Positions 35,923 through 46,964 of a stretch of 46,964 nucleotides of DNA are shown here, one piece after another. Below the pieces are notes generated by a model. That model was not told the DNA's origin. It did not search any database and worked only from the letters and a program-made list of their open reading frames with translations. Both the position numbers and the translations under genes were made by a program. Each line of letters begins with the position of its first letter. Position 1 is the stretch's first letter. The DNA comes from Bacteroidia bacterium (lineage in GTDB: Bacteria; Bacteroidota; Bacteroidia; Flavobacteriales_D; Sanyastnellaceae). Where the stretch lies: NCBI GenBank assembly GCA_030427925.1, contig JAUICJ010000001.1, forward strand, positions 299,388 to 346,351. The letters run 5' to 3'.

Positions 35923-36066
35923 ATGATGAAACTGCGCAACATATCGGCGAGGTTGCGCCCGGTCTTGGACTGGGTGGATGCGCATTTGGTCTGGTTTTTC
36001 ACCAACGGGAACAAAGTGGGCGTCGAGGAGGGCCAGGTGACGCCGCACGACGATCACGTGATTTGA
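35923..36066 (+). CDS. Possible small protein of 47 residues
   Basis: This frame begins MMKLRNISARLRPVLDWVDA and continues HLVWFFTNGNKVGVEEGQVT, ending in an Asp/His-rich tail. I do not recognise it. Support comes from its codons: about 80% have G or C at the third position, as in the neighbours, although the stretch is otherwise intergenic. An upstream in-frame ATG at 35860 would add a hydrophobic segment (68 residues in all). Its 3' end overlaps the convergent aldehyde dehydrogenase gene by 13 bases. A TATCCTTG element at 35906-35913 may be its promoter. Confidence 0.45.
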   Translation: MMKLRNISARLRPVLDWVDAHLVWFFTNGNKVGVEEGQVTPHDDHVI

Positions 36067-37502
36067 ATGCAAACGTTCTGAGGTTCGGTAAAGAACCGCA
36101 ACGATTCGGTTCCGCCTTCGCGCCCGGCTCCGGATGATTTCACGCCACCGAATGGCATGCGCAAATCGCGCTCCAGCCAGCAGTTCACCCATGCGATGCC
36201 GCTGTCGATTCGGGCGGCAACGCGGTGTGCCCGCCGCAGGTTTTCGGTCCAAATCGTGCACGCGAGCCCATACTCCGTCCCATTCGCCAAGCTGATGGCC
36301 TCTTCCTCGGTTGCAAAGGGCTGGAGCGTGACCACGGGGCCGAAGATTTCTTGTTGGTTCACTTCGCAAGTGGGAGAGAGCCCCTCGATGATGGTGGGCT
36401 GCATGAAATGGCCTTGGCGGCAGCGGTCGCCTTCGGGGTGGGTGGCTTGGCCGCCGCAGAGGATGGTGCCTCCAAGTTCCCGCGCTTGGGCGACGAAGGA
36501 TTGGATCTTGGCCAAATGCTCAGCCGATGCCACCGCGCCCATTTTGGTCTCGGGCAACGACGGGTCCCCAGGCCGCATGGCGCTGACTTTTTCCACCAAC
36601 GCATCGCGGAAGCGGTCGTAGATGGATTCGTGGATGAGGAATCGGCTGGAACAGAGGCAGATTTGGCCTTGATTCGCAAAACCAGAGCGCAGCACGGTCC
36701 GCAGCGTCAAGTCGAAATCGCAGTCCTCGAAAATGATGGCGGGATTTTTTCCGCCCAACTCAAAGGTGGTTTTCTTCGACGTGCCCGCTACGGCTCGGGC
36801 AATGTGCCGACCAGTCGCCGTTCCCCCTGTGAAGGAAATGGCCTTGATCCGCGGGTGCGTAACGAGGGCTTCCCCCACCTCGTTGCCCAAACCGTGCACG
36901 ATGTTGAAACTTCCAGGAGGGAAGCCGGACTCGTTGATCCATTGGGACATCAAGAAGGCGGTTGCCGGCGTGATTTCAGACGGCTTGCCGATGACGCAAT
37001 TGCCCATGGCCAAAGCCGGAGCGACCTTCCAAGTGAACAAGTACAGGGGAAGGTTCCACGGGGAGATCACGCCCACCGTGCCGAGCGGCTTTCGGTGCAC
37101 GTAGTGCAGCTGATGCGCGCCCGCGGCCATGCCGGCCTCGGTCAAATACTGCTGCGCAGCGGAAGCATAGAAGCGGAGGTTCTTCTCCGCCCGGGGAATG
37201 TCCACGTGTGCGGCGAGGCTGACCGGTTTCCCGTTGTCACGCGATTCGGCTGCTACGAGTTCGTCGAAGTGTTCGGCGATGCGATCAGCGAGTCGGTTCA
37301 AGCAGGCGGCGCGCTCTTCCACCGAAGTCGATGACCAGATCGGATACGCAGCTTGCGCGGCTTCCATGGCGCGTTCGACGTCCGCTGCGCCTGAACGCGG
37401 AAGGCGTCCATAGGGGAGGCCAGTTGCGGGTTCGATGTTGTCCAACCATCCGTTTTCGATGGCAGGGAGGTGCATGCCTCCAATGAAGTTCAAAATATCC
37501 AT
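36054..37502 (-). CDS. NAD(P)-dependent aldehyde dehydrogenase
   Basis: The 482-residue protein has the family motifs: VISPWNLPLYLFTWKVAPAL (cofactor and active site), SFTGGTATGRHIA (Rossmann glycines), FELGGKNPAIIFEDCD (general base Glu) and NQGQICLCSSRFLI (catalytic Cys). EIFGPVVTLQPF is also present. It oxidises an aldehyde to an acid. The overall pattern is closest, from memory, to 2-hydroxymuconic or 2-aminomuconic semialdehyde dehydrogenases, but no ring-cleavage pathway genes are adjacent, so the substrate is open. Confidence 0.9.
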   Translation of the reverse strand: MDILNFIGGMHLPAIENGWLDNIEPATGLPYGRLPRSGAADVERAMEAAQAAYPIWSSTSVEERAACLNRLADRIAEHFDELVAAESRDNGKPVSLAAHVDIPRAEKNLRFYASAAQQYLTEAGMAAGAHQLHYVHRKPLGTVGVISPWNLPLYLFTWKVAPALAMGNCVIGKPSEITPATAFLMSQWINESGFPPGSFNIVHGLGNEVGEALVTHPRIKAISFTGGTATGRHIARAVAGTSKKTTFELGGKNPAIIFEDCDFDLTLRTVLRSGFANQGQICLCSSRFLIHESIYDRFRDALVEKVSAMRPGDPSLPETKMGAVASAEHLAKIQSFVAQARELGGTILCGGQATHPEGDRCRQGHFMQPTIIEGLSPTCEVNQQEIFGPVVTLQPFATEEEAISLANGTEYGLACTIWTENLRRAHRVAARIDSGIAWVNCWLERDLRMPFGGVKSSGAGREGGTESLRFFTEPQNVCIQIT

Positions 37503-37585: not shown

Positions 37586-37656
37586 TCCCCGATGGTGTAA
37601 TGGTAACACACCGGTTTTTGGTGCCGTTTTTCCAGGTTCGAGTCCTGGTCGGGGAA
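37586..37656 (+). tRNA. tRNA-Gln (anticodon TTG)
   Basis: The 71-base cloverleaf folds with acceptor TCCCCGA/TCGGGGA, D stem GTGT/ACAC, anticodon TTG at 37618-37620, T stem CCAGG/CCTGG and T loop TTCGAGT. The base after the acceptor is A, and CCA is not encoded. The anticodon stem has a C-U mismatch at its base (27-43), and the variable loop is four bases. It has its own promoter and terminator. Confidence 0.95.
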
Positions 37657-37659
37657 CTG

Positions 37660-37778: not shown

Positions 37779-38243
37779 ATGCGCCTGATTTCCTTCAACT
37801 CGCTCTTCCTCGCAGGAGCACTCTCCGTCTTCGGCATGGCCACGGCGGCAGCTCAAAGCACTGCAGACACCTCAACAGGTGCACCGTGGCTCTACAATCC
37901 GGACGCCAACGGCAACGGCAACATTGCGACGTTCGATCTCATGGAGTTGTTGTCCATTTTCGGCCAAGACGTGGATTTTCCAGCGGTTGTTCCGGCTGAG
38001 ACGGTGGACGGCTTGACGGATCAAGTGGAATGGCTCGACCAAATCGTGAGGGCCCAGCACGAGCAGTTGGTCGTCCTGACGGATGCGGTGAGGCAGTTGC
38101 AGCAGGCAGCGGTGGGGCCGTTCGTTTGGAGCGAGGAGCACCAGGCTTGGATTTGCAGCGAGTCGGTGGTCGTTCAGGGAGTGGTTCGTTCGGGTCGGTT
38201 GGAATCCGGTTCTGCTCGCATTGGTGGGTTGTCGGCGAATTGA
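37779..38243 (+). CDS. Small secreted protein with Ca-loop-like module and coiled coil
   Basis: The ATG at 37779 gives 154 residues with a signal peptide ending ATAAAQS (about residue 26). Residues 39-67 read YNPDANGNGNIATFDLMELL followed by SIFGQDVDF. This Asp/Asn/Gly-rich loop plus helix resembles a dockerin or EF-hand half. A coiled coil (about 77-110) and a beta-rich tail (VWSEEHQAWICSESVVVQGV and onward) complete the protein. There is no T9SS sorting domain. The same N-terminal module starts the convergent YadA-like gene at 38314-39492. I do not recognise a named family and the function is unknown. Confidence 0.75.
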   Translation: MRLISFNSLFLAGALSVFGMATAAAQSTADTSTGAPWLYNPDANGNGNIATFDLMELLSIFGQDVDFPAVVPAETVDGLTDQVEWLDQIVRAQHEQLVVLTDAVRQLQQAAVGPFVWSEEHQAWICSESVVVQGVVRSGRLESGSARIGGLSAN

Positions 38244-38260
38244 GTGCGAATGGCTGAAAT

Positions 38261-38296
38261 GAAAACGGCCCGGACTGAGCAGTCCGGGCCGTTTTC
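38261..38296. terminator. Perfect 16-base bidirectional terminator
   Basis: GAAAACGGCCCGGACT and AGTCCGGGCCGTTTTC pair perfectly around the tetraloop GAGC. It lies between two convergent genes and has A and T runs in its arms, so it can stop transcription from both sides. Confidence 0.92.
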
Positions 38297-38313
38297 ATTT
38301 CCACGCGTGGGGT

Positions 38314-39492
38314 TCACTGACCCTGGAGCAGCGTTTCCACCTGACTCGTCAACAGGAGCAGGGCTTCTTCGAGTTCGGTCACTCGGGAATTGAGTGAATC
38401 GATGACCTGCATCGGGTTGGTTCCGCCCACGAGGAGGGTTTCGTGCACTTCCACCGTTCCGTCGTTGATGACGGTCAGGGCGTTGCTTCGGGATTGCAGG
38501 GATCCGTTGCCCACAGCGAAGAGGAGCCCGGGTACTTCGAGGGTGTTGTATTGGCCCACCACGAAACTTTGATCGGCATCTGCTACGGTTGAAAGTCCGA
38601 AGGCCGCGGAGGAGTTGTTCAGGGCTTGGGTTTGGCGACCGTGCGACGAGCTGTAGAGTCCCGAGGCGATGGTTTGGTAGCCTTCCGCGTGCGCTGCATA
38701 GCCGGTGGCGTCGGATTGGAATCCTTCGGCGTGGCTGTTGCTGCCACTGGCCAAGGTGGCATCGCCCTCGGCGTGTGAGGCGGTGCCCGAGGCGACCGTG
38801 TTGCGGTTCTCCGCATGGCTGTAAAGGCCCGTTGCGTCGGTCAAGTAGCCTTCAGCGTGGGCCGCGGTGCTGTTCGCAAGCGTTACGTATCCTTCGGAGT
38901 GAGCGTAGTTGGCCGTGGCGTCGGTTGCGTAACCTTCGGCATGAGAGGCGGTGCCCGATGCGAACGAACTCATGCCTTGGGCGTGCGACGCCACACCCGC
39001 TGCCGTGCATCCTTCCCCGGCTGCGCTGGAACAGGTGGCGGTAGCGTTGGTGAGGCGATTTTGGGCGTGGCTATAGGCCCCGGACGCAGTGACATTCAGG
39101 CCGCTCGCTTGCGCGAATGCCCCCGTTGCATTCGCATTGAGTCCCTGACTCAGGGTCGTTTCCACGCGGATGGCACCGTGGACGTAAGCCATTTCCTGGT
39201 TGCTGATGAGGGTGTCTTGGAACAAGGCCAAACCCAACGAATCCCGCGCAGCGGACGCATTGTTCGACCCCGTTCCACCCCCGGCCACCGGCAACACGCC
39301 TTCTACGAGAAACGAGCTTCCGTAGTAGGGGAGGAACTGCAGGAGATCTCCGATTTCGATTTCACCGTTGCCATCGTAATCCGGGTTGTAGGGGAATCCG
39401 ATTTCGGTTTGGCCTGAGGCGGGAAGAGCGAGTGCCAGCGCGAAAAACCATCCGCTGGCGCACATCAAAAAGGGCTTGCTGAGGTGTTTCAT
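38314..39492 (-). CDS. Secreted fibre-like protein with YadA-type head repeats
   Basis: The 392-residue product has a signal peptide ending PASGQ (about residue 28). The Ca-loop-like module YNPDYDGNGEIEIGDLLQFL (35-54) comes next, then LPVAGGGTGSNNASAARDSL, which matches the GGTG motif of phage tail fibres. Residues about 118-305 are 14-residue YadA/trimeric-autotransporter head repeats of the type ASGxxSHAEGxxT. A neck-like part (FAVGNG, RSNALTVINDG) and a C-terminal coiled coil (IDSLNSRVTELEEALLLLTS) finish the chain. Neither a YadA membrane anchor nor a T9SS sorting domain is present, so how it reaches or stays on the surface is unclear. Trimer formation is inferred from the head repeats. 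Confidence 0.82.
   Translation of the reverse strand: MKHLSKPFLMCASGWFFALALALPASGQTEIGFPYNPDYDGNGEIEIGDLLQFLPYYGSSFLVEGVLPVAGGGTGSNNASAARDSLGLALFQDTLISNQEMAYVHGAIRVETTLSQGLNANATGAFAQASGLNVTASGAYSHAQNRLTNATATCSSAAGEGCTAAGVASHAQGMSSFASGTASHAEGYATDATANYAHSEGYVTLANSTAAHAEGYLTDATGLYSHAENRNTVASGTASHAEGDATLASGSNSHAEGFQSDATGYAAHAEGYQTIASGLYSSSHGRQTQALNNSSAAFGLSTVADADQSFVVGQYNTLEVPGLLFAVGNGSLQSRSNALTVINDGTVEVHETLLVGGTNPMQVIDSLNSRVTELEEALLLLTSQVETLLQGQ
38578..39141 (-). repeat. YadA-like head repeats
   Basis: About 13-14 units of about 14 residues (42 bases) with the core SHAEG or close variants, all in frame inside the fibre gene. The DNA copies are diverged but the protein periodicity is regular. 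Confidence 0.85.
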
Positions 39493-39511
39493 AGCCTAAA
39501 AATACGCAGAA

Positions 39512-39535
39512 AAGCCGTCCCGAATGGGACGGCTT
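39512..39535 (-). terminator. Terminator of the giant T9SS protein gene
   Basis: AAGCCGTCCC and GGGACGGCTT pair perfectly around a 4-base loop, 42 bases after the stop of the giant gene. On the minus strand a TTTT run overlaps the end of the stem. The YadA-like gene begins 20 bases further on, preceded by a TATTTTTA element (39497-39504) that may be its -7 box. Confidence 0.75.
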
Positions 39536-39577
39536 CTCTGCGACTTGGGAGCCGTACGCTCCACATCGAAGGATTCG

Positions 39578-42500
39578 TTAAGGCATGACCACCAACAACC
39601 GCGAAACGCGTTCTTGCGAAGTGGAGATGACCACGGCATAGGTGCCCACTTCCAGGCCTTTCACTCGGAATTCAATGGTCTGTGGCGTTTTCGCAAAGAC
39701 TTGTCCATGGAAGATGTCGCTGATCAAAGCACCCTGGAGGCTGTGAAGCGTGACGGCCACGACATCGTCTTGGTCGATGTTGAAGTTCAACAACGCAACG
39801 TCGGAGGCCGGGTTCGGTTGCAGCGAAACGATTTCGATGCCGTTTTCGCCCACAATCAAGCCGCTCGGTCCGTTGTCCTCCTCATCCTCATAGGGGCCCG
39901 CGATGGGGGGAGTGGGCAGGCAGGAGGTCGACTCCACGCTCAGAACGTACTCAAAGCTGGTCGCATTCCCTGCGCAGTCTGTCGCGGTGTAGGTCCGCGT
40001 CACTGTGACCGGTTCCGTGCAGTTCAGATCCCCGAACAAATCGCCCGTCCCCGAAACCGCGTTTCCGTTCAACGTCCCCGTGTAGAAGAAGTCGGCGCTG
40101 TACCCGTAGTTGCTGTTCTTGTTGTTTGCCCCAAACCCTTCTTGCATGGCGTAGTAGAAGTTGGACGGTTGGTGGGTCAAATTCAGCACGGATCCCGCAT
40201 AGTCACCCCATCCGGTCATCGTACCTGACGTCATGATGTGGTACAACCAATTCTCGTGGTCGTTCACCTGAGTCCCACAGACATAGCGGTAGGATTGCGC
40301 CTCAGGGTTGTTCATCCAATCGGTCCAGTTCAGGCCTTCGGTGAAGGTGACGTCGATCGTCCAGCCGGCATTCGGGTTGTCGGATGCGACCACGGTTTGG
40401 CTCAAGACGAAAGTTCCATCGTCCAAATGCGTCGCCGTCCCCGCGACCGATTCGTAGAACGCTTCGCCCGGAAAGCTGCCCAAGAACACGCTGTACGGCT
40501 GCATGTTATCGCAGGTCAAATCATCGGGCATGACGTCAGGCGTCGTGACGGTGCAATACCCTTGCATGATGTCGGTGCCGGCAGGCAAAGTGGGTTCGAT
40601 CACTTCCTCGTAAACCACCTCGGTGCCCGCGTCACAATTGTCGGTGACATCAAGGACACACGCATCCGGCAAGGTGAACGTCCCGCCGTAGGAGTCGAAG
40701 CACAGCGCGATGGTTTCGCCGTTGCCCGCGTCGCAAGTGCCTTCGAGCACCGGAGCGGCGGTGTCGCTGATGGTCAGGACTTGCAGAGCGATGGAGCTGT
40801 TCCCGCAATCATCGGTGACCGTGAAGGTGCGTTCGATGACGTATTCCGTGCTGCAGCTGCCTTCAACGATGACGTCCGCGAAGTCGTAGACCAAATCCGC
40901 GTCCGCCGTCGCATCATCACTCGCAACGATCCATTCAAAGGGCACCTGTTCGTCGCACGACAAGGCAACGTTGGCCGGGACATACGAAATCACCGGAGCA
41001 GTCGTGTCGGTCACGGTCACCGTGTTGCTCACGCTGCTCGAATTGCCGGACGCATCCGTCGCCGTGTACGTCACCGTAGCAACGAATGTGCCGGTACACA
41101 CCACATCCGAAATCACCACGCTCATGTCCAAGGTCGCATTGGGATCGCAAGCATCCTCGAAGGTGGGCGCATAGTTCATCAAGTCGATGACCAACCACGC
41201 TTCGTGCGTCACGATCAGGTTGCCGGGTTCGGCGTCGAAAACAGGCCCCTCGGTGTCCACCACGTGGATGATTTGAACGGCCGTTTCCGCGTTGCCGCAC
41301 TCGTCGGTCGCCGTGAACGTCCGCTCGAGCGTGTAGTTGCCCACAACCCCTTCTGCCACGATGGCGTCGGAAGTGGTCATCGTCGCTGCACCGCAAGCGT
41401 CTTCCGCCACGGCATTGGGCGCTGGCAAGTCCTCCGAGCACTGCACCGTTGCGGTGTCGGGCACGAAGGTGAAGGTGGGCGCTTGGTTGTCCACCACGTT
41501 CAGGATTTGGGTCGCCACGGCGGTGTTGCCGCAGGCATCCGTAGCGGTGTGCGTGCGCACGATGGTGAGTTCGTTCGGGCAGGTGCCTGGGGTCACGTCA
41601 TCCGTGTAGGCCAGGATCAAGTCTTCGCTGGCTGTTGCGTTGTCTACCGCTGTGGCCAAATCTTCCGGCAGCGCCGCATCGCAGTTCAACGTGGCATCCG
41701 CCGGCACGAACGTCATGACCGGGTCTACCGAATCCAAGAAGCTGAGGGTGAACGGAACTTCCAGCACATTGCCGTTTTCATCACTGAACGCGTAATTGAC
41801 GACGACATCGAACGCTCCTGCACAGCTGCCTTCCACGATGGAATGCGACCACGTTCCGGGCAAGCCGGTTCCCTGAAGCGCGCCCGCGGACGCACCACCG
41901 CCTCCCGTTTCCGAGGTGCAGTTGTCTTGGACCACCGGTTCGTAGAAGGCAAGCAAGGACTCATCCCATTCGGTGCTTTGAAGCACCGGGGCAGGCGCTT
42001 GGTACACCAACTCGGGTCCGGTAGCGTCCACGATGGAAATCACCACGCTGGTGGTCGTGCTGTTTCCGCAATCGTCCGCAATCGTGAACGTCCGCATCAG
42101 TTCGAATTCGGTTGCGCTTGAGGCCTGCAACGTATCGTCAACAAAGGTGATTTCGAGTTCGGTGTCGAAGTTGTCGACGGCCGTTGGAAGTGCCACGGAA
42201 ATCACTTCGTCGCATCCGAAGGTGAGGTCTTCGGGGGTGGTCAGCACCACCGGTGCCAACGAGTCGATCAGGATGATTTCTTGTTCGACCGGGACCGATT
42301 GGTTGCCACAGCCATCCACCGCTACGTAGGTCCGAACGATGGTGCCCGTGCAACCGCTTGCAATGAATTGGTCGGTGAACGTCAGCAACGCTTCGGAACA
42401 GGCGTCCACTGCGGTGGCGTAAGCAGCGTCTTCAATGAACGCCTCGACGGACAACTCAAGGACCGACTCGGCCACGAGTTCCGGCGCATCGTTGTCGATG

Positions 42501-45500
42501 ACGCTGATGACTTGGGTGTGGTCCGTGACGTTGCCCGAGCAATCTGTGGCGGTCCAGGTCCGCGTCCAAACGCCCGTTGCTTCGCAGGTGCCCGCTTCGA
42601 ACGATTCCAAGAAGTCCACTGTTGCCGTGCTGCAGTTGTCTGTGGCCGTCAAGGTTGCCGGTGCTGGAACGTTTCCACACGCCACGGTGAGGTCAGCGGG
42701 CAACTCCTCGTTGAAGGCAGGAGCCGTCGTGTCGTTCACCTCGATGGTGAAGGTGGCCGTGGTGGCGTTGTTGCACGCATCGGTGGCCGTTAAGGTCACG
42801 AGGTGCACGTAGTTTCCGCACGCATCGTCGCTCAGGACCGTGCGATCTTCCGTGATGGTCACGTTCGAGCAGGCGTCGATGGCTTCGGCCGTGTACGGCT
42901 GTTCGGTGCAGGATTCAAGTTGGTCCGCTGGGACGAGCGTGAACGTGGGCGGGGTTTGGTCCGACACTTCGATCACTTGCACGTGCGCGGTTTCGTTGCC
43001 GGAGCAATCGCTCGCCGTCCACGTCCGCGTGATCGTGTAGGATCCGGGGCAAGCTCCCGCTGTGGTAGACTCGTCGAACGTCACGATCGCGCCTTCCGAG
43101 CAGTTGTCGGTTGCCGTCAACACCGGGGCCGTGGGGATGGCGTCGCATTCCACGGTGACGCTAGCGGGAAGGGACTCCACGAATTCAGGGGCGACGTCGT
43201 CTTGAACCGTGATCGTGAATTGCGTCGTGGCCACGTTGTCGCAGGCATCCGATGCCGTGATGGTCACCAAGTGGCTGTAGTTTCCGCACGCGTCTTCGCT
43301 CAGGATTTCGCGCGTTTCGTTGATGATGACCTCGGAGCACGCATCGATGGCGGCTGCGGCATAAGGTTGCTCGCTGCAGTCGTTGATTTGGTTCGCGGGT
43401 GTGCTGGTGAAGGTCGGTGGCGTGGTGTCTTCGATGAGCAGGGTTTGGACCACTTCAGACACGTTGCCGCAATCATCTACGGCGGTGAGCGTGCGCAGAA
43501 CCGTGTAACAGCCGCCTGTGGGGTTCACCGGTTCATCGGTCCAAGTCACCGCAACTTCGGTGTCCGCGTTGTCCGAGGCGGTCCATCCGCCCCAATCGGA
43601 TTGGGCGTTGTAATCGGTGCATTCCACGACAACGGATTCGGCTGTCAACGCGGGCGCTGTGGTATCCTGAACTGTGATGAACGTTCCCGTGGAGCTGGTG
43701 AGGTTGCAGAAGTCTTCCGCGATCCAAATCCGAACGAACTCATAGCTGCCCTCCGGCGTGTTGTCATCGCCAGCACACAGCGGGGTCGCTGTTCCATCGA
43801 AGAAGTTGATGGTCAACGTACCATCCTCCATGCTGCTGCAATTGTCGGTAGCGCTGGCTTGAAGGTCCATACTCCATTCCCCGTTTTCGTCGAGGAAGGC
43901 TGATGCAGAACCGGCCACGGAAATCGTCGGTTCGGTGTTGTCGAACAGGGTGAGGTATTGTTCGGCGGTCGCTGCGTTGCCACAAGCGTCCTGCGCGGTC
44001 CAAACCCGCAGCCAAGTGCCCGGACATCCACCGCCCAGCAGCGTTGCGTTCACGCTGTACGTCACGTCTGACCCGCACGCATCGGCAGCCGTCAACGGGA
44101 GGTAGTTGGTGTCAAACGGATCTTCGAGCGCAGAGCACTCGACCGTACGGAAGAGCTGATAGGGGTCAAACACGGGGGCGGTGACGTCCTCGACGGTGAT
44201 GGTTTGGACACACGAGGCGGGTTCGCCCGCTTGGCCACACGCATCAACGGCCGTGGCCGTGAAGGTCCGTTCAAACGAATAGCTTCCGCCGCATCCGGGC
44301 GTGGGAGGCCCATCGAAGAACGTCACTTGCACCGGGACCGAGCCGTCGCAGGCGTCCTCTGCGGAGGCGCTGGCCATGCCCGTTACGTCGGTATTCAGGT
44401 TCGCAGTGCAGGACGGGTTCGCTGCGATGGTCACGTCAGCCGGGCAGTCGATGCTGATGACGGGACCGGAGGTGTCCCCGACTTGGATGGTCTGCTCGCA
44501 CGTTGCAACGGCGCTGTTTCCGCACACGTCGGTGGCCGTCAACGTAAAGGTCCGAACGAAGGTGAACCCAGCGCAGCTTGGAATGGCCTCGCTGTCGCTG
44601 GTGGTCCAAACCGTTGCCACGTCCCCGCAATTGTCCGTGACCGTGAAGTCAGGTGTGCCCAAGGCGGCGACGCTCGTGTCGGCCGCGCAGGCGGTTCCTT
44701 CAACCGCGAGTTCAGGGGCGCAGCTGAGGCTGATTTCCGGTGCGACGTCATCGATCAGTTCGATGGTTTGGGTGAAGAAAGCGGTGTTTCCACACGCGTC
44801 CACTGCCGACCAAGTCCGAACGATGGTGCCTGGAGCCCCCAAGCAGCCGCCGGCGGTGGTGGCGTCCGTATAAGTCAAGGTGATGTCGTTGCAAGCGTCC
44901 GACACGTCAACCACGATGCCGCTCAGGTCGCCGCAGGGCGCGGTCACTTCGGGCTCCGTGTTGCCGAAGCTCGGGGGCGTGAGGTCTTCGACGTGCAAGG
45001 TTTGCATGGCGGTGGTGCTGTTGCCACACGCGTCGGTTGCCGTCCACGTCACGACGCGGTCGTAGTTGGTTCCGCATGAGCCCGGCACGTCCACGAAGGT
45101 GGACGTGAGCGACACGCCACCGCAGTTGTCCGTGGCTTCCGGGGTCAGGTAGAACACGTCTTCCTCGCATCCGAAGTAGATGTCAGAGGGAAGGGCGCTG
45201 ATGACCGGTGCGACGTTGTCGATTCCGGTGATGGTTTGGACGTAGTCGGTGGTGTTTCCGAGGCAGTCGGAGGCCTGCCAGGTGCGCGTGATGATGAATT
45301 CGTTGGCGCATGCTCCGGTTTGGGTGGTCTCCCCGATGTAGGCCAAATCCACATTCGCATTGGAACATCCTTCCGCCACTTCGAAAGCATCCAATCCCAC
45401 GACCGGCGGCACTTCACCACACGCGACCTCCACATCCGCTGGTCCACTCAGGAACACCGGGCCTTCCTCATCCACCACCTCGAAGAGCTGCACTTCATTC

Positions 45501-46964
45501 CACCACAAATTGCAGGTGGGATCGTAAGCGGTGTAGTGAATGTACACCGCGTCCTGTCCACAAGCGGTCGGCTCGACCACTTCGTCTTCGCTCAAATCGA
45601 TGACGAGGTCGCCCACAAAGCCGATGACGGATTCGCCTTGAACCATGCCTTCCCAAGAGAACCAGCCGCCCAGTCCGTATTGGCAATTGTGGCCGTTGCC
45701 GCCGTATCCGAGCTGGAATCGTTTGCTCTGGCTCGTAGGCATGTGGTTGAGCGCGAGGTAAGAACCCGCATACCCGCCCATCCCTTGGAGGTAACTTTGG
45801 TCGTTCTTCAGAACGTACGTCAAGGTGTTGGCGGTGTCAATGGAGCAGCCGTAAGCGGCGATGAGGCCATGGTTGGGCGATTCAGCAAGGAATTCATCGG
45901 CGGGTTGTTCGCCTTCAAAAACCAGGTGCACTTCCCAGGCCAAATCCGCATTCACATTGTTCCGAACGGTTCCCTCCACCAACGCCGTTCCATTGCTGAA
46001 TCGCGTAACGGTCAGCGGTTCCTCCTCGAACCACAAATCCGTGGGCGCCAATCCTTGGCTAGCCAGTCCGTTGATGCGAATGGCGGCATCGGGTCCGCTA
46101 CCATAAGCGGTGGTGCCTCCATTCAAAATGATTCCGCCGGATGCGTCACCGACGAAGGCACTGACCTCCAACGCTTCGCCCGTGCAGAATCCGGTGGCCG
46201 TAACGTCCAGTGGAGCGGTGGGCAGGTCTTCTGCGCAGGACAAGGTTTGGTCCGTCAACGCTGGCTCAAATACGGCGTAACAAGCCTCGCATGGCAACGG
46301 CTCTCCATTGCAATCGAAGCCCATCTCGGGATACGTGCAGCTGGCGTCATCGTCCGTCGCGTCGGCTTGGAAATTGCACGCGGCCTCATCCGTACAGCCG
46401 GGCACTTCAAAGGGGTCGCAGATGCCGTCTCCATCGGTATCGGTCAGGCAATTCCCTTCGCAGTCGTAACCGAATTCGGCATAGGTGCAGGTTCCATCTT
46501 CATCGGTGGCACCGGCGTTGTAGTTGCAGGCCATTTCATCGGTACAACCTGGAATTTCAAACGGATCGCAAACCCCATCGCCATCCGTGTCATCGAGGCA
46601 AATGCCAGCACAGTCGTAACCGGTCTCTGCGTAGGTGCAGGATCCGTCTTCGTCCGTGGCATCGGCTTGGTAATTGCAGGCCGTCTCATCGGTACAACCG
46701 GGGATTTCAAACTCGTCACACACACCATCGAGGTCGGCATCGTTCAAGCAGACGCCGTCGCAGTCGTAACCGGCATCGGCGTAGGTGCAGGATCCGTCTT
46801 CGTCGGTCGCATCGGCGTTGTAGTTGCAGGCGGTTTCGTCCTGGCAACCGGCAATCTCAAACTCGTCGCACACGCCATCGAGGTCGGCATCGTTCAAGCA
46901 GACGCCGTCGCAGTCGTAACCCGCATCGGCATAGGTGCAGGACCCGTCTTCATCGGTCGCATCG
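39578..46964 (-). CDS. Giant T9SS-exported adhesin with HYR-like repeats (5' end beyond the window)
   Basis: The frame is open from 46963 to the stop at 39578, giving 2461 residues in the window; the N terminus lies further right. From N to C it has four full and one partial 50-residue Asp/Cys-rich repeats (46280-46964), then a globular domain inside an HYR-like unit (about 45590-46160). Nineteen HYR-like units of about 82 residues follow (about 40773-45473), with the core TDNC ... RTWTATDxxGN. A twentieth unit is interrupted by a second, related globular domain (about 40020-40560). A type A sorting domain closes the chain (about 39578-39852), with SLQPNPASDVALLNFN and GLEVGTYAVVIST. The C-terminal signal means export by type IX secretion and surface attachment. 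Adhesion is inferred from the repeat families. Confidence 0.93.
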   Translation of the reverse strand, partial: DATDEDGSCTYADAGYDCDGVCLNDADLDGVCDEFEIAGCQDETACNYNADATDEDGSCTYADAGYDCDGVCLNDADLDGVCDEFEIPGCTDETACNYQADATDEDGSCTYAETGYDCAGICLDDTDGDGVCDPFEIPGCTDEMACNYNAGATDEDGTCTYAEFGYDCEGNCLTDTDGDGICDPFEVPGCTDEAACNFQADATDDDASCTYPEMGFDCNGEPLPCEACYAVFEPALTDQTLSCAEDLPTAPLDVTATGFCTGEALEVSAFVGDASGGIILNGGTTAYGSGPDAAIRINGLASQGLAPTDLWFEEEPLTVTRFSNGTALVEGTVRNNVNADLAWEVHLVFEGEQPADEFLAESPNHGLIAAYGCSIDTANTLTYVLKNDQSYLQGMGGYAGSYLALNHMPTSQSKRFQLGYGGNGHNCQYGLGGWFSWEGMVQGESVIGFVGDLVIDLSEDEVVEPTACGQDAVYIHYTAYDPTCNLWWNEVQLFEVVDEEGPVFLSGPADVEVACGEVPPVVGLDAFEVAEGCSNANVDLAYIGETTQTGACANEFIITRTWQASDCLGNTTDYVQTITGIDNVAPVISALPSDIYFGCEEDVFYLTPEATDNCGGVSLTSTFVDVPGSCGTNYDRVVTWTATDACGNSTTAMQTLHVEDLTPPSFGNTEPEVTAPCGDLSGIVVDVSDACNDITLTYTDATTAGGCLGAPGTIVRTWSAVDACGNTAFFTQTIELIDDVAPEISLSCAPELAVEGTACAADTSVAALGTPDFTVTDNCGDVATVWTTSDSEAIPSCAGFTFVRTFTLTATDVCGNSAVATCEQTIQVGDTSGPVISIDCPADVTIAANPSCTANLNTDVTGMASASAEDACDGSVPVQVTFFDGPPTPGCGGSYSFERTFTATAVDACGQAGEPASCVQTITVEDVTAPVFDPYQLFRTVECSALEDPFDTNYLPLTAADACGSDVTYSVNATLLGGGCPGTWLRVWTAQDACGNAATAEQYLTLFDNTEPTISVAGSASAFLDENGEWSMDLQASATDNCSSMEDGTLTINFFDGTATPLCAGDDNTPEGSYEFVRIWIAEDFCNLTSSTGTFITVQDTTAPALTAESVVVECTDYNAQSDWGGWTASDNADTEVAVTWTDEPVNPTGGCYTVLRTLTAVDDCGNVSEVVQTLLIEDTTPPTFTSTPANQINDCSEQPYAAAAIDACSEVIINETREILSEDACGNYSHLVTITASDACDNVATTQFTITVQDDVAPEFVESLPASVTVECDAIPTAPVLTATDNCSEGAIVTFDESTTAGACPGSYTITRTWTASDCSGNETAHVQVIEVSDQTPPTFTLVPADQLESCTEQPYTAEAIDACSNVTITEDRTVLSDDACGNYVHLVTLTATDACNNATTATFTIEVNDTTAPAFNEELPADLTVACGNVPAPATLTATDNCSTATVDFLESFEAGTCEATGVWTRTWTATDCSGNVTDHTQVISVIDNDAPELVAESVLELSVEAFIEDAAYATAVDACSEALLTFTDQFIASGCTGTIVRTYVAVDGCGNQSVPVEQEIILIDSLAPVVLTTPEDLTFGCDEVISVALPTAVDNFDTELEITFVDDTLQASSATEFELMRTFTIADDCGNSTTTSVVISIVDATGPELVYQAPAPVLQSTEWDESLLAFYEPVVQDNCTSETGGGGASAGALQGTGLPGTWSHSIVEGSCAGAFDVVVNYAFSDENGNVLEVPFTLSFLDSVDPVMTFVPADATLNCDAALPEDLATAVDNATASEDLILAYTDDVTPGTCPNELTIVRTHTATDACGNTAVATQILNVVDNQAPTFTFVPDTATVQCSEDLPAPNAVAEDACGAATMTTSDAIVAEGVVGNYTLERTFTATDECGNAETAVQIIHVVDTEGPVFDAEPGNLIVTHEAWLVIDLMNYAPTFEDACDPNATLDMSVVISDVVCTGTFVATVTYTATDASGNSSSVSNTVTVTDTTAPVISYVPANVALSCDEQVPFEWIVASDDATADADLVYDFADVIVEGSCSTEYVIERTFTVTDDCGNSSIALQVLTISDTAAPVLEGTCDAGNGETIALCFDSYGGTFTLPDACVLDVTDNCDAGTEVVYEEVIEPTLPAGTDIMQGYCTVTTPDVMPDDLTCDNMQPYSVFLGSFPGEAFYESVAGTATHLDDGTFVLSQTVVASDNPNAGWTIDVTFTEGLNWTDWMNNPEAQSYRYVCGTQVNDHENWLYHIMTSGTMTGWGDYAGSVLNLTHQPSNFYYAMQEGFGANNKNSNYGYSADFFYTGTLNGNAVSGTGDLFGDLNCTEPVTVTRTYTATDCAGNATSFEYVLSVESTSCLPTPPIAGPYEDEEDNGPSGLIVGENGIEIVSLQPNPASDVALLNFNIDQDDVVAVTLHSLQGALISDIFHGQVFAKTPQTIEFRVKGLEVGTYAVVISTSQERVSRLLVVMP
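40773..45473 (-). repeat. Nineteen tandem HYR-like units
   Basis: Each unit of about 75-95 residues begins with a VxDxxAPxF-like strand and ends RTxTAxDxCGNxxxxxQ. HYR (hyalin repeat) domains are immunoglobulin-like and common in large bacterial surface proteins. Units at about 42966-43436 and 42500-42965 are duplicated as a two-unit block. Confidence 0.85.
46280..46964 (-). repeat. 50-residue (150-base) Asp/Cys repeats at the right edge
   Basis: Four complete units start at 46963, 46813, 46663 and 46513 (read leftwards), with a fifth partial unit from 46363. Each has the form DATDEDGSCTY ... GYDCxGxCLxDxDxDGVCD followed by FEIPGCTDETACNYNA. The two rightmost units share long identical DNA runs. 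The DxDxDG loops look like thrombospondin type 3 Ca sites. More copies may lie beyond the window. Confidence 0.9.

Follow-up and report, generated by a model that had tools for sequence, protein, structure and literature searches.

Two convergent genes in a 46,964-nucleotide stretch of a Bacteroidia genome (contig JAUICJ010000001.1, positions 299,388 to 346,351 of the forward strand; the whole stretch is termed the window) encode proteins, P0001 and P0002, with the same short module close behind a signal peptide, raising the question of what this module is and what it could do at the N termini of the two mature proteins. The first-pass annotation considered the pair as possible fibres and the module as an assembly, anchoring or export tag taking the place of the domain recognized by the type 9 secretion system (T9SS). 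The features of the locus needed here are the following.

37779..38243, + strand: P0001 gene (154 aa); signal peptide, module, helix/coil and a short C-terminal part
37893..37964, + strand: N-terminal half-dockerin module of P0001, YNPDANGNGNIATFDLMELLSIFG, residues 39-62; 54.8 bits (19-row profile) and 67.4 bits (N-form profile), being itself one row of both profiles
37995..38108, + strand: predicted long helix/coil of P0001, residues 73-110; low confidence, pLDDT blocks 45-51
38257..38300, no strand: perfect inverted repeat, 20-bp stem with a 4-base loop, between the P0001 and P0002 genes
38314..39492, - strand: P0002 gene, fibre-like protein (392 aa); matches in 64 of 114 family genomes
38320..38415, - strand: C-terminal helix/coiled coil of P0002, residues 360-391; pLDDT blocks 65-78 for residues 361-390
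38578..39159, - strand: YadA-type head repeats of P0002, residues ~112-305; BpaC (PDB code 7o23) E 6.4e-6, CbpF 2.7e-4, YadA 0.0087
39217..39309, - strand: tail-fibre-like linker of P0002, GVLPVAGGGTGS...ARDSLGL, residues 62-92; PHROG tail fiber families E 5e-5 (isolated stretch)
39319..39390, - strand: N-terminal half-dockerin module of P0002, YNPDYDGNGEIEIGDLLQFLPYYG, residues 35-58; 57.2 bits (19-row profile)
39578..46897, - strand: upstream neighbour of P0002, HYR_4C giant ending in a T9SS type A tail (26.2 bits, over cut-off)

Arrangement of the P0001/P0002 locus

The translations bear out the earlier reading that P0001 and P0002 each begin with a signal peptide (called by a hydrophobicity rule and by eye), followed after a few residues by a module of the type YNPDx(D/N)GNGxIxxxDLxxLLxx(F/Y)G. 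When the YNPD...GNG core is written as a degenerate DNA pattern, it occurs at exactly two places in the 2.95-Mb genome, those in P0001 and P0002, and the reversed pattern has no place in it. No mention of YNPD in connection with Bacteroidota was found in the literature searched. AlphaFold gives no confident fold for the module in either protein and nothing confident anywhere in P0001. The coiled coil assigned at first to both proteins behind the module is retained for P0001 as a predicted helix of low confidence and not for P0002, where the module is followed by a GGTG linker and the YadA-type head with a short helix at the C terminus.

The two genes are convergent among the window ORFs and lie, as first described, tail to tail around a perfect palindrome whose 20-bp stem is confirmed. 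The calculated folding energy of the 71-nt stretch surrounding this hairpin is -41.5 kcal/mol (z -6.6) on one strand and -40.8 kcal/mol (z -7.1) on the other, and the hairpin is likely a bidirectional terminator; it is not among the output of a consensus terminator scan, probably because its T runs sit within the stem. A tRNA-Gln (TTG) is placed just upstream of P0001 at 37586-37657 (+). The giant protein on the far side of P0002 has 16 HYR_4C stretches and a weak TSP3_bac likeness, and between its gene and that of P0002 there is a further strong terminator-like hairpin (39505-39542, - strand) with 17 pairs and a T-rich tail, which makes an operon of the two genes doubtful.

Among 14 related loci, nine have a gene like window ORF 36054-37502 (an aldehyde dehydrogenase by eye only) next to the fibre gene, one of the nine with a P0001 relative in between, and six have an HYR-like gene, recognized by eye, on the opposite side of the fibre gene. 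Relatives of P0001 are present in genomes G001 (L144, 47.5% identity) and G013 (L145, 36.9%), each convergent with a fibre gene, so that the convergent pair recurs in two of the 14 loci.

Two forms of a dockerin-like module

A search with one module sequence finds 24 places in the genome and a 19-row profile finds 74, 73 of which were mapped to ORFs (C32:20487, at 10.4 bits, was left out). By profile the module is carried by 57 ORFs and does not rest on two proteins, as had been cautioned. It is C-terminal in 46 of the 57, defined as a last module no more than eight residues from the stop, and the other 11 comprise eight with the module just past the signal peptide and three with an internal module. 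The eight consist of P0001, P0002, C30:66351, C30:67533, C18:7 and C48:45203, all of the NPD type, together with C12:21076, which has SPD, and C31:35234, which is of the Cys type. Two or more copies are found by profile in 15 of the 46 C-terminal ORFs and a single module in 31; one of the 46 (C18:9376-10476) has modules near both ends. Internal modules occur on C11 and C14 of this genome, and L183 has a YNPD module near residue 699. Genes with the N-terminal module (N-tagged) are found next to one another: two adjacent pairs are formed among the eight, compared with ~0.02 expected on an assumed total of ~2,700 genes, and eight neighbouring pairs are seen in the loci fetched from this genome and its relatives. 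The second pair in the genome, at C30:66351-70862 (L065 6721-10863), consists of a FISUMP protein and, after it, a collagen-like one whose end is FISUMP-like.

The C-terminal form, placed at the stop, reads roughly C-P-x-D-x-N/D-x-D-G-x-V-x-x-x-D-L-L-x-x-L-x-x-F-G-x-x-C, and the N-terminal form, collected as 53 instances from the genome and its relatives, reads P-(Y/W/F)-N-P-D-...-(F/Y)-G-x-x-F. With positions counted relative to loop position 1, cysteine is present at +23 in 44 of the 46 C-terminal modules, and 36 of these have it at -3 as well. The pattern used to collect the N-terminal form specifies an aromatic residue at -3, N/S/Q/G at -2, P/G at -1, D/N at 1, I/V at 8 and D at 12, a choice that misses variants, among them L147 with its WDPD and L183 with its internal YNPD. 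At the restricted positions -2 and -1 the 53 instances have N in 50 and P in 52, and at the loop positions wholly or partly required they have D at 1 in 52, I/V at 8 in 53 and D at 12 in 53. Positions 3, 5 and 23 were left free by the pattern, and here D/N/E/S is found at 3 in all 53, D/N at 5 in 48 and an aromatic residue at +23 in 41. The cysteine pair of the C-terminal form thus contrasts with a mostly aromatic pair at the same places in the N-terminal form. For a type I dockerin, PMC4728124 reports a head-to-tail clasp with Tyr-Pro stacking and describes it as stabilizing. From the residue patterns we infer that the two forms of the module close the loop-helix unit by two chemistries, a cysteine pair in one and aromatics in the other.

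The best PDB matches of the module profile are type I dockerins (PDB code 2y3n, 1.7e-7; PDB code 1ohz, 9e-7), and the module shares with the type I dockerin family (PF00404) the loop D-x-N/D-x-N/D-G-x-I/V-x-x-x-D. Elsewhere in the genome, double C-terminal tails pass the PF00404 cut-off in four of six cases. However, the type I dockerin has two EF-type repeats, whereas the window modules are single and have no PF00404 match; none of four N-form modules matches PF00404, and among 44 complete N-tagged proteins (the 53 instances minus six truncated at a contig end and three in which the rule gave no Met) one does, at E 0.0033. The C-terminal form is closest in its Cys pattern and paired EF-type loops to dockerin_GC (NF041540), which NCBI names GC-type dockerin domain-anchored protein; no mention of a "GC-type dockerin" was found in the literature searched. 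Ten of the 15 double-tailed ORFs were scanned with this model and all 10 tails match nearly end to end, two over the cut-off of 29 bits (29.1 and 30.6) and eight at 19.2-27.6 bits. A difference is that most C-terminal modules here are single, the four singles tested scoring 14.1-20.4 bits. Modules behind a signal peptide (four of the (Y/W)NPD type and one of the Cys type) have no dockerin_GC match up to E 10, and the 44 N-tagged proteins have none at E<=0.01. The window module is a single-repeat, N-terminal and mostly cysteine-free relative of the GC-type dockerin within what would be a family-wide terminal-tag system.

Directly past the signal peptide is where 52 of the 53 N-terminal modules are located (48 by a crude rule and four by eye), the exception, in L182, being the second of two tandem modules past the signal peptide, and no further module is found beyond residue 110 in any of 47 N-tagged proteins. 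The 44 complete proteins include 15 copies of this fibre, nine FISUMP proteins, five GH16 proteins and two collagen-like proteins. A module specific to fibres, with hits sharing fibre domains, is rejected on the presence of the N-terminal form in FISUMP and GH16 proteins. The first-pass annotation had held that occurrence in unrelated enzymes as an ordinary repeat would speak against a tag; such occurrence is in part what the FISUMP and GH16 proteins display, yet the tag position is unchanged in them.

The module is present in 105 of the 114 genomes of the Flavobacteriales family to which the window genome belongs (E<=1e-5), many having more than 40 matches, and is scarce in two genera of the family (none in g4, none or one in g20). 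A profile of the N-terminal form matches none of 23 genomes from other families of the same order and two of 395 Bacteroidota genomes taken phylum-wide, both of these within the family; a mixed profile matches five of the 395, three of them outside the family with one match each. As judged from these profile searches, one Flavobacteriales family has the module in abundance, and elsewhere in the Bacteroidota it is rare.

A tag is favoured by the mostly terminal placement, the dockerin-type loops and the near-restriction to one family. These features bear also on a reading in which the modules play no part in targeting and are simply calcium-binding repeats of the EF-hand or thrombospondin type. 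Such acidic repeats are present at the locus, in the weak TSP3_bac matches of the HYR neighbour, and a few modules are internal, but the placement at protein ends, the conserved NPD and loop aspartates and the family restriction make this reading very improbable. A different possibility is a structural cap, a calcium-stabilized fold protecting the free N terminus (and starting trimer assembly in the fibre) with no partner involved. The module is the first folded element past the signal peptide in the 52 proteins noted above, it precedes domains as different as fibre heads, FISUMP, GH16 and collagen, and no binding partner was found with cohesin as the candidate tested, all of which would suit a cap. 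The cap is nevertheless unlikely, as the same module is located at the very C terminus of 46 other ORFs, where it resembles the "dockerin domain-anchored" family, and near-restriction to one bacterial family would be odd for a generic cap.

Architecture of the fibre-like protein P0002

P0002 is built like a trimeric fibre, with a tail-fibre-like linker, a YadA-type head and a C-terminal coil, and would form a trimer. The head is predicted by AlphaFold as a β-roll (pLDDT blocks 59-92, residues 121-300). A Foldseek search with the predicted P0002 structure, head included, returned no significant match. Matches to the YadA/Ata models of NCBIfam are weak, and Pfam PF05658 is matched by five of the 44 N-tagged proteins but not by P0002 itself at E<=0.01. 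Residues N36, P37, D49 and G58 and the GGTG of the linker are invariant in 15 aligned fibres, all of which except L132 were fetched via their module, so that the presence of the module in them proves nothing. The whole-fibre search gives a fair count of the module on fibres: module and head are both covered in 62 of the 64 matching genomes, the exceptions being G123, where the match is interrupted, and G132, where it is to the module only.

The YadA-type head repeats are shared with trimeric autotransporter adhesins (YadA, BpaC and CbpF). In a difference from these, the YadA anchor domain is not matched in P0002, the only likeness near the C terminus being a weak match to BimA that stops at residue 368; the C terminus is predicted as a 32-residue helix, and attachment is presumed to be at the N terminus. 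The literature searched yielded no paper linking trimeric YadA head domains with Bacteroidetes. The GGTG linker and the head also have likenesses among phage tail fibres and tail spikes, respectively, and by analogy with these the N terminus is the attachment end. P0002 resembles a tail fibre in which the module has taken the place of the attachment domain, which suggests the N terminus as the base. Over residues 105-355 P0002 and the tail spike of Flavobacterium phage immuto share 38.6% identity, a likeness of the head that suggests exchange between phage and host fibres. Unlike a phage tail fibre, P0002 is chromosomal and has a signal peptide. A prophage origin was judged unlikely because the fibre gene keeps the same chromosomal neighbour in nine of the 14 related loci.

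Tag, secretion and a proposed docking partner

The T9SS type A sorting domain (TIGR04183) is unlike the module in sequence but, in these same genomes, likewise tags the ends of many exported proteins. The literature searched held no paper connecting an EF-hand with the C-terminal domain of type IX secretion in Flavobacteriales. Profile scans find no T9SS tail on P0001 or P0002, and none of the 44 complete N-tagged proteins has one at E<=0.01, a figure for the N-tagged set alone. The module is therefore not always accompanied by a T9SS domain, which had been named as a finding that would count against a separate tag. C-terminal modules trivially exclude a T9SS tail at the C terminus. A profile search of the window genome returned 64 T9SS tails, 50 over the cut-off, and placed none on the 57 module ORFs, while a direct scan found one, on C45:56378-59998 (24.8 bits, over cut-off), an ORF that carries the weakest mapped internal dockerin module (15.1 bits). 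The genome-wide search missed this tail, so that its T9SS counts should be taken as minimum values.

Tag load and T9SS load are opposed among the 114 family genomes, with a Spearman coefficient of -0.68, and of -0.45 (p 0.04) over 21 genus means, values that are uncorrected for relatedness and are based on unscored first-look T9SS counts and on module counts among the matches listed (top values at least 69). Genera g7 and g12 are rich in both. Of the earlier proposal that the tag replaces the T9SS domain, the positional tag beside the signal peptide and the missing T9SS tails hold, and replacement itself is suggested by these rather than observed. The same two results, the tails missing from N-tagged proteins and the opposed loads, could point to an export signal recognized by an outer-membrane exporter, forming a second secretion route besides T9SS. 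Dockerins, however, are docking modules that act in binding and not in export, and secretion by T9SS through an unrecognized signal or plain retention in the periplasm could also account for the missing tails; an export signal is considered quite unlikely.

The partner of the type I dockerin, cohesin, is for the most part not found in the family, with matches in 12 of the 114 genomes (E<=0.01), five of them over the cut-off. When genomes with at least 10 module matches are termed tag-rich, cohesin is rarer in these (five of 82) than in tag-poor genomes (seven of 32), and cohesin as a general receptor is rejected on these counts. A search with the whole fibre finds a match in 64 of the 82 tag-rich genomes and in none of the 32 tag-poor ones. 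One scaffoldin-like protein, L083 (C45:54525-56528), has three cohesin stretches, of which one passes the Pfam cut-off (E 1.1e-6) and the other two are weak, with a fourth seen by eye, and ends in a double tail resembling dockerin_GC (27.6 bits, slightly below cut-off); it is flanked by another double-tailed ORF and by a T9SS-tailed ORF with an internal dockerin. These cohesin stretches and the double tail are what a classical, cellulosome-like cohesin-dockerin assembly with L083 as the scaffold would draw upon, an arrangement that is extremely unlikely given the scarcity of cohesin, greater still in tag-rich genomes, and the N-terminal modules being single rather than paired, L182 excepted. 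The scarcity of cohesin in tag-rich genomes leads instead to the proposal that docking takes place on another, non-cohesin partner.

The best explanation overall, with about an even chance of being correct, is that the module is a half-dockerin docking tag fixing the base of the fibre to a non-cohesin partner. The module would be a single EF-hand-type half dockerin acting as a terminal docking tag on Sec-exported proteins and, in its N-terminal form, would become the first folded element of the mature protein once the signal peptide is cleaved. In P0002 it would lie at the base, the YadA-type head of the presumed trimer pointing away from it, and its calcium-stabilized binding to the partner would keep the trimer on the cell envelope; calcium binding, docking, the existence of the partner, the surface location and the trimer are all proposed from sequence. 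In those genomes that have it, P0001 would act as a small accessory protein bearing the same tag. A point against a docking tag is that one EF-hand makes up half of a classical dockerin, and such a half may be unable to dock.

The first-pass description of an undescribed surface system stands in the position of the tag and in the absence of T9SS tails but is qualified by the relationship to known dockerins, seen in the best PDB matches and in the resemblance of the C-terminal form to dockerin_GC. In its broadest form the proposal is that this Flavobacteriales family has its own terminal-tag system beside T9SS, in which a half dockerin used at either protein end binds a non-cohesin receptor and anchors, among other proteins, a domesticated tail-fibre-like trimer by its N terminus, a picture advanced tentatively. 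If this holds, each genome would have dozens of exported proteins whose sorting or anchoring depends on a different tag from the T9SS tail, and dockerins would gain a role that does not involve cohesins. The tag is short (about 24 residues) and testable and would have two interchangeable closures, and the fibre, present in most tag-rich genomes, would serve as its model cargo.
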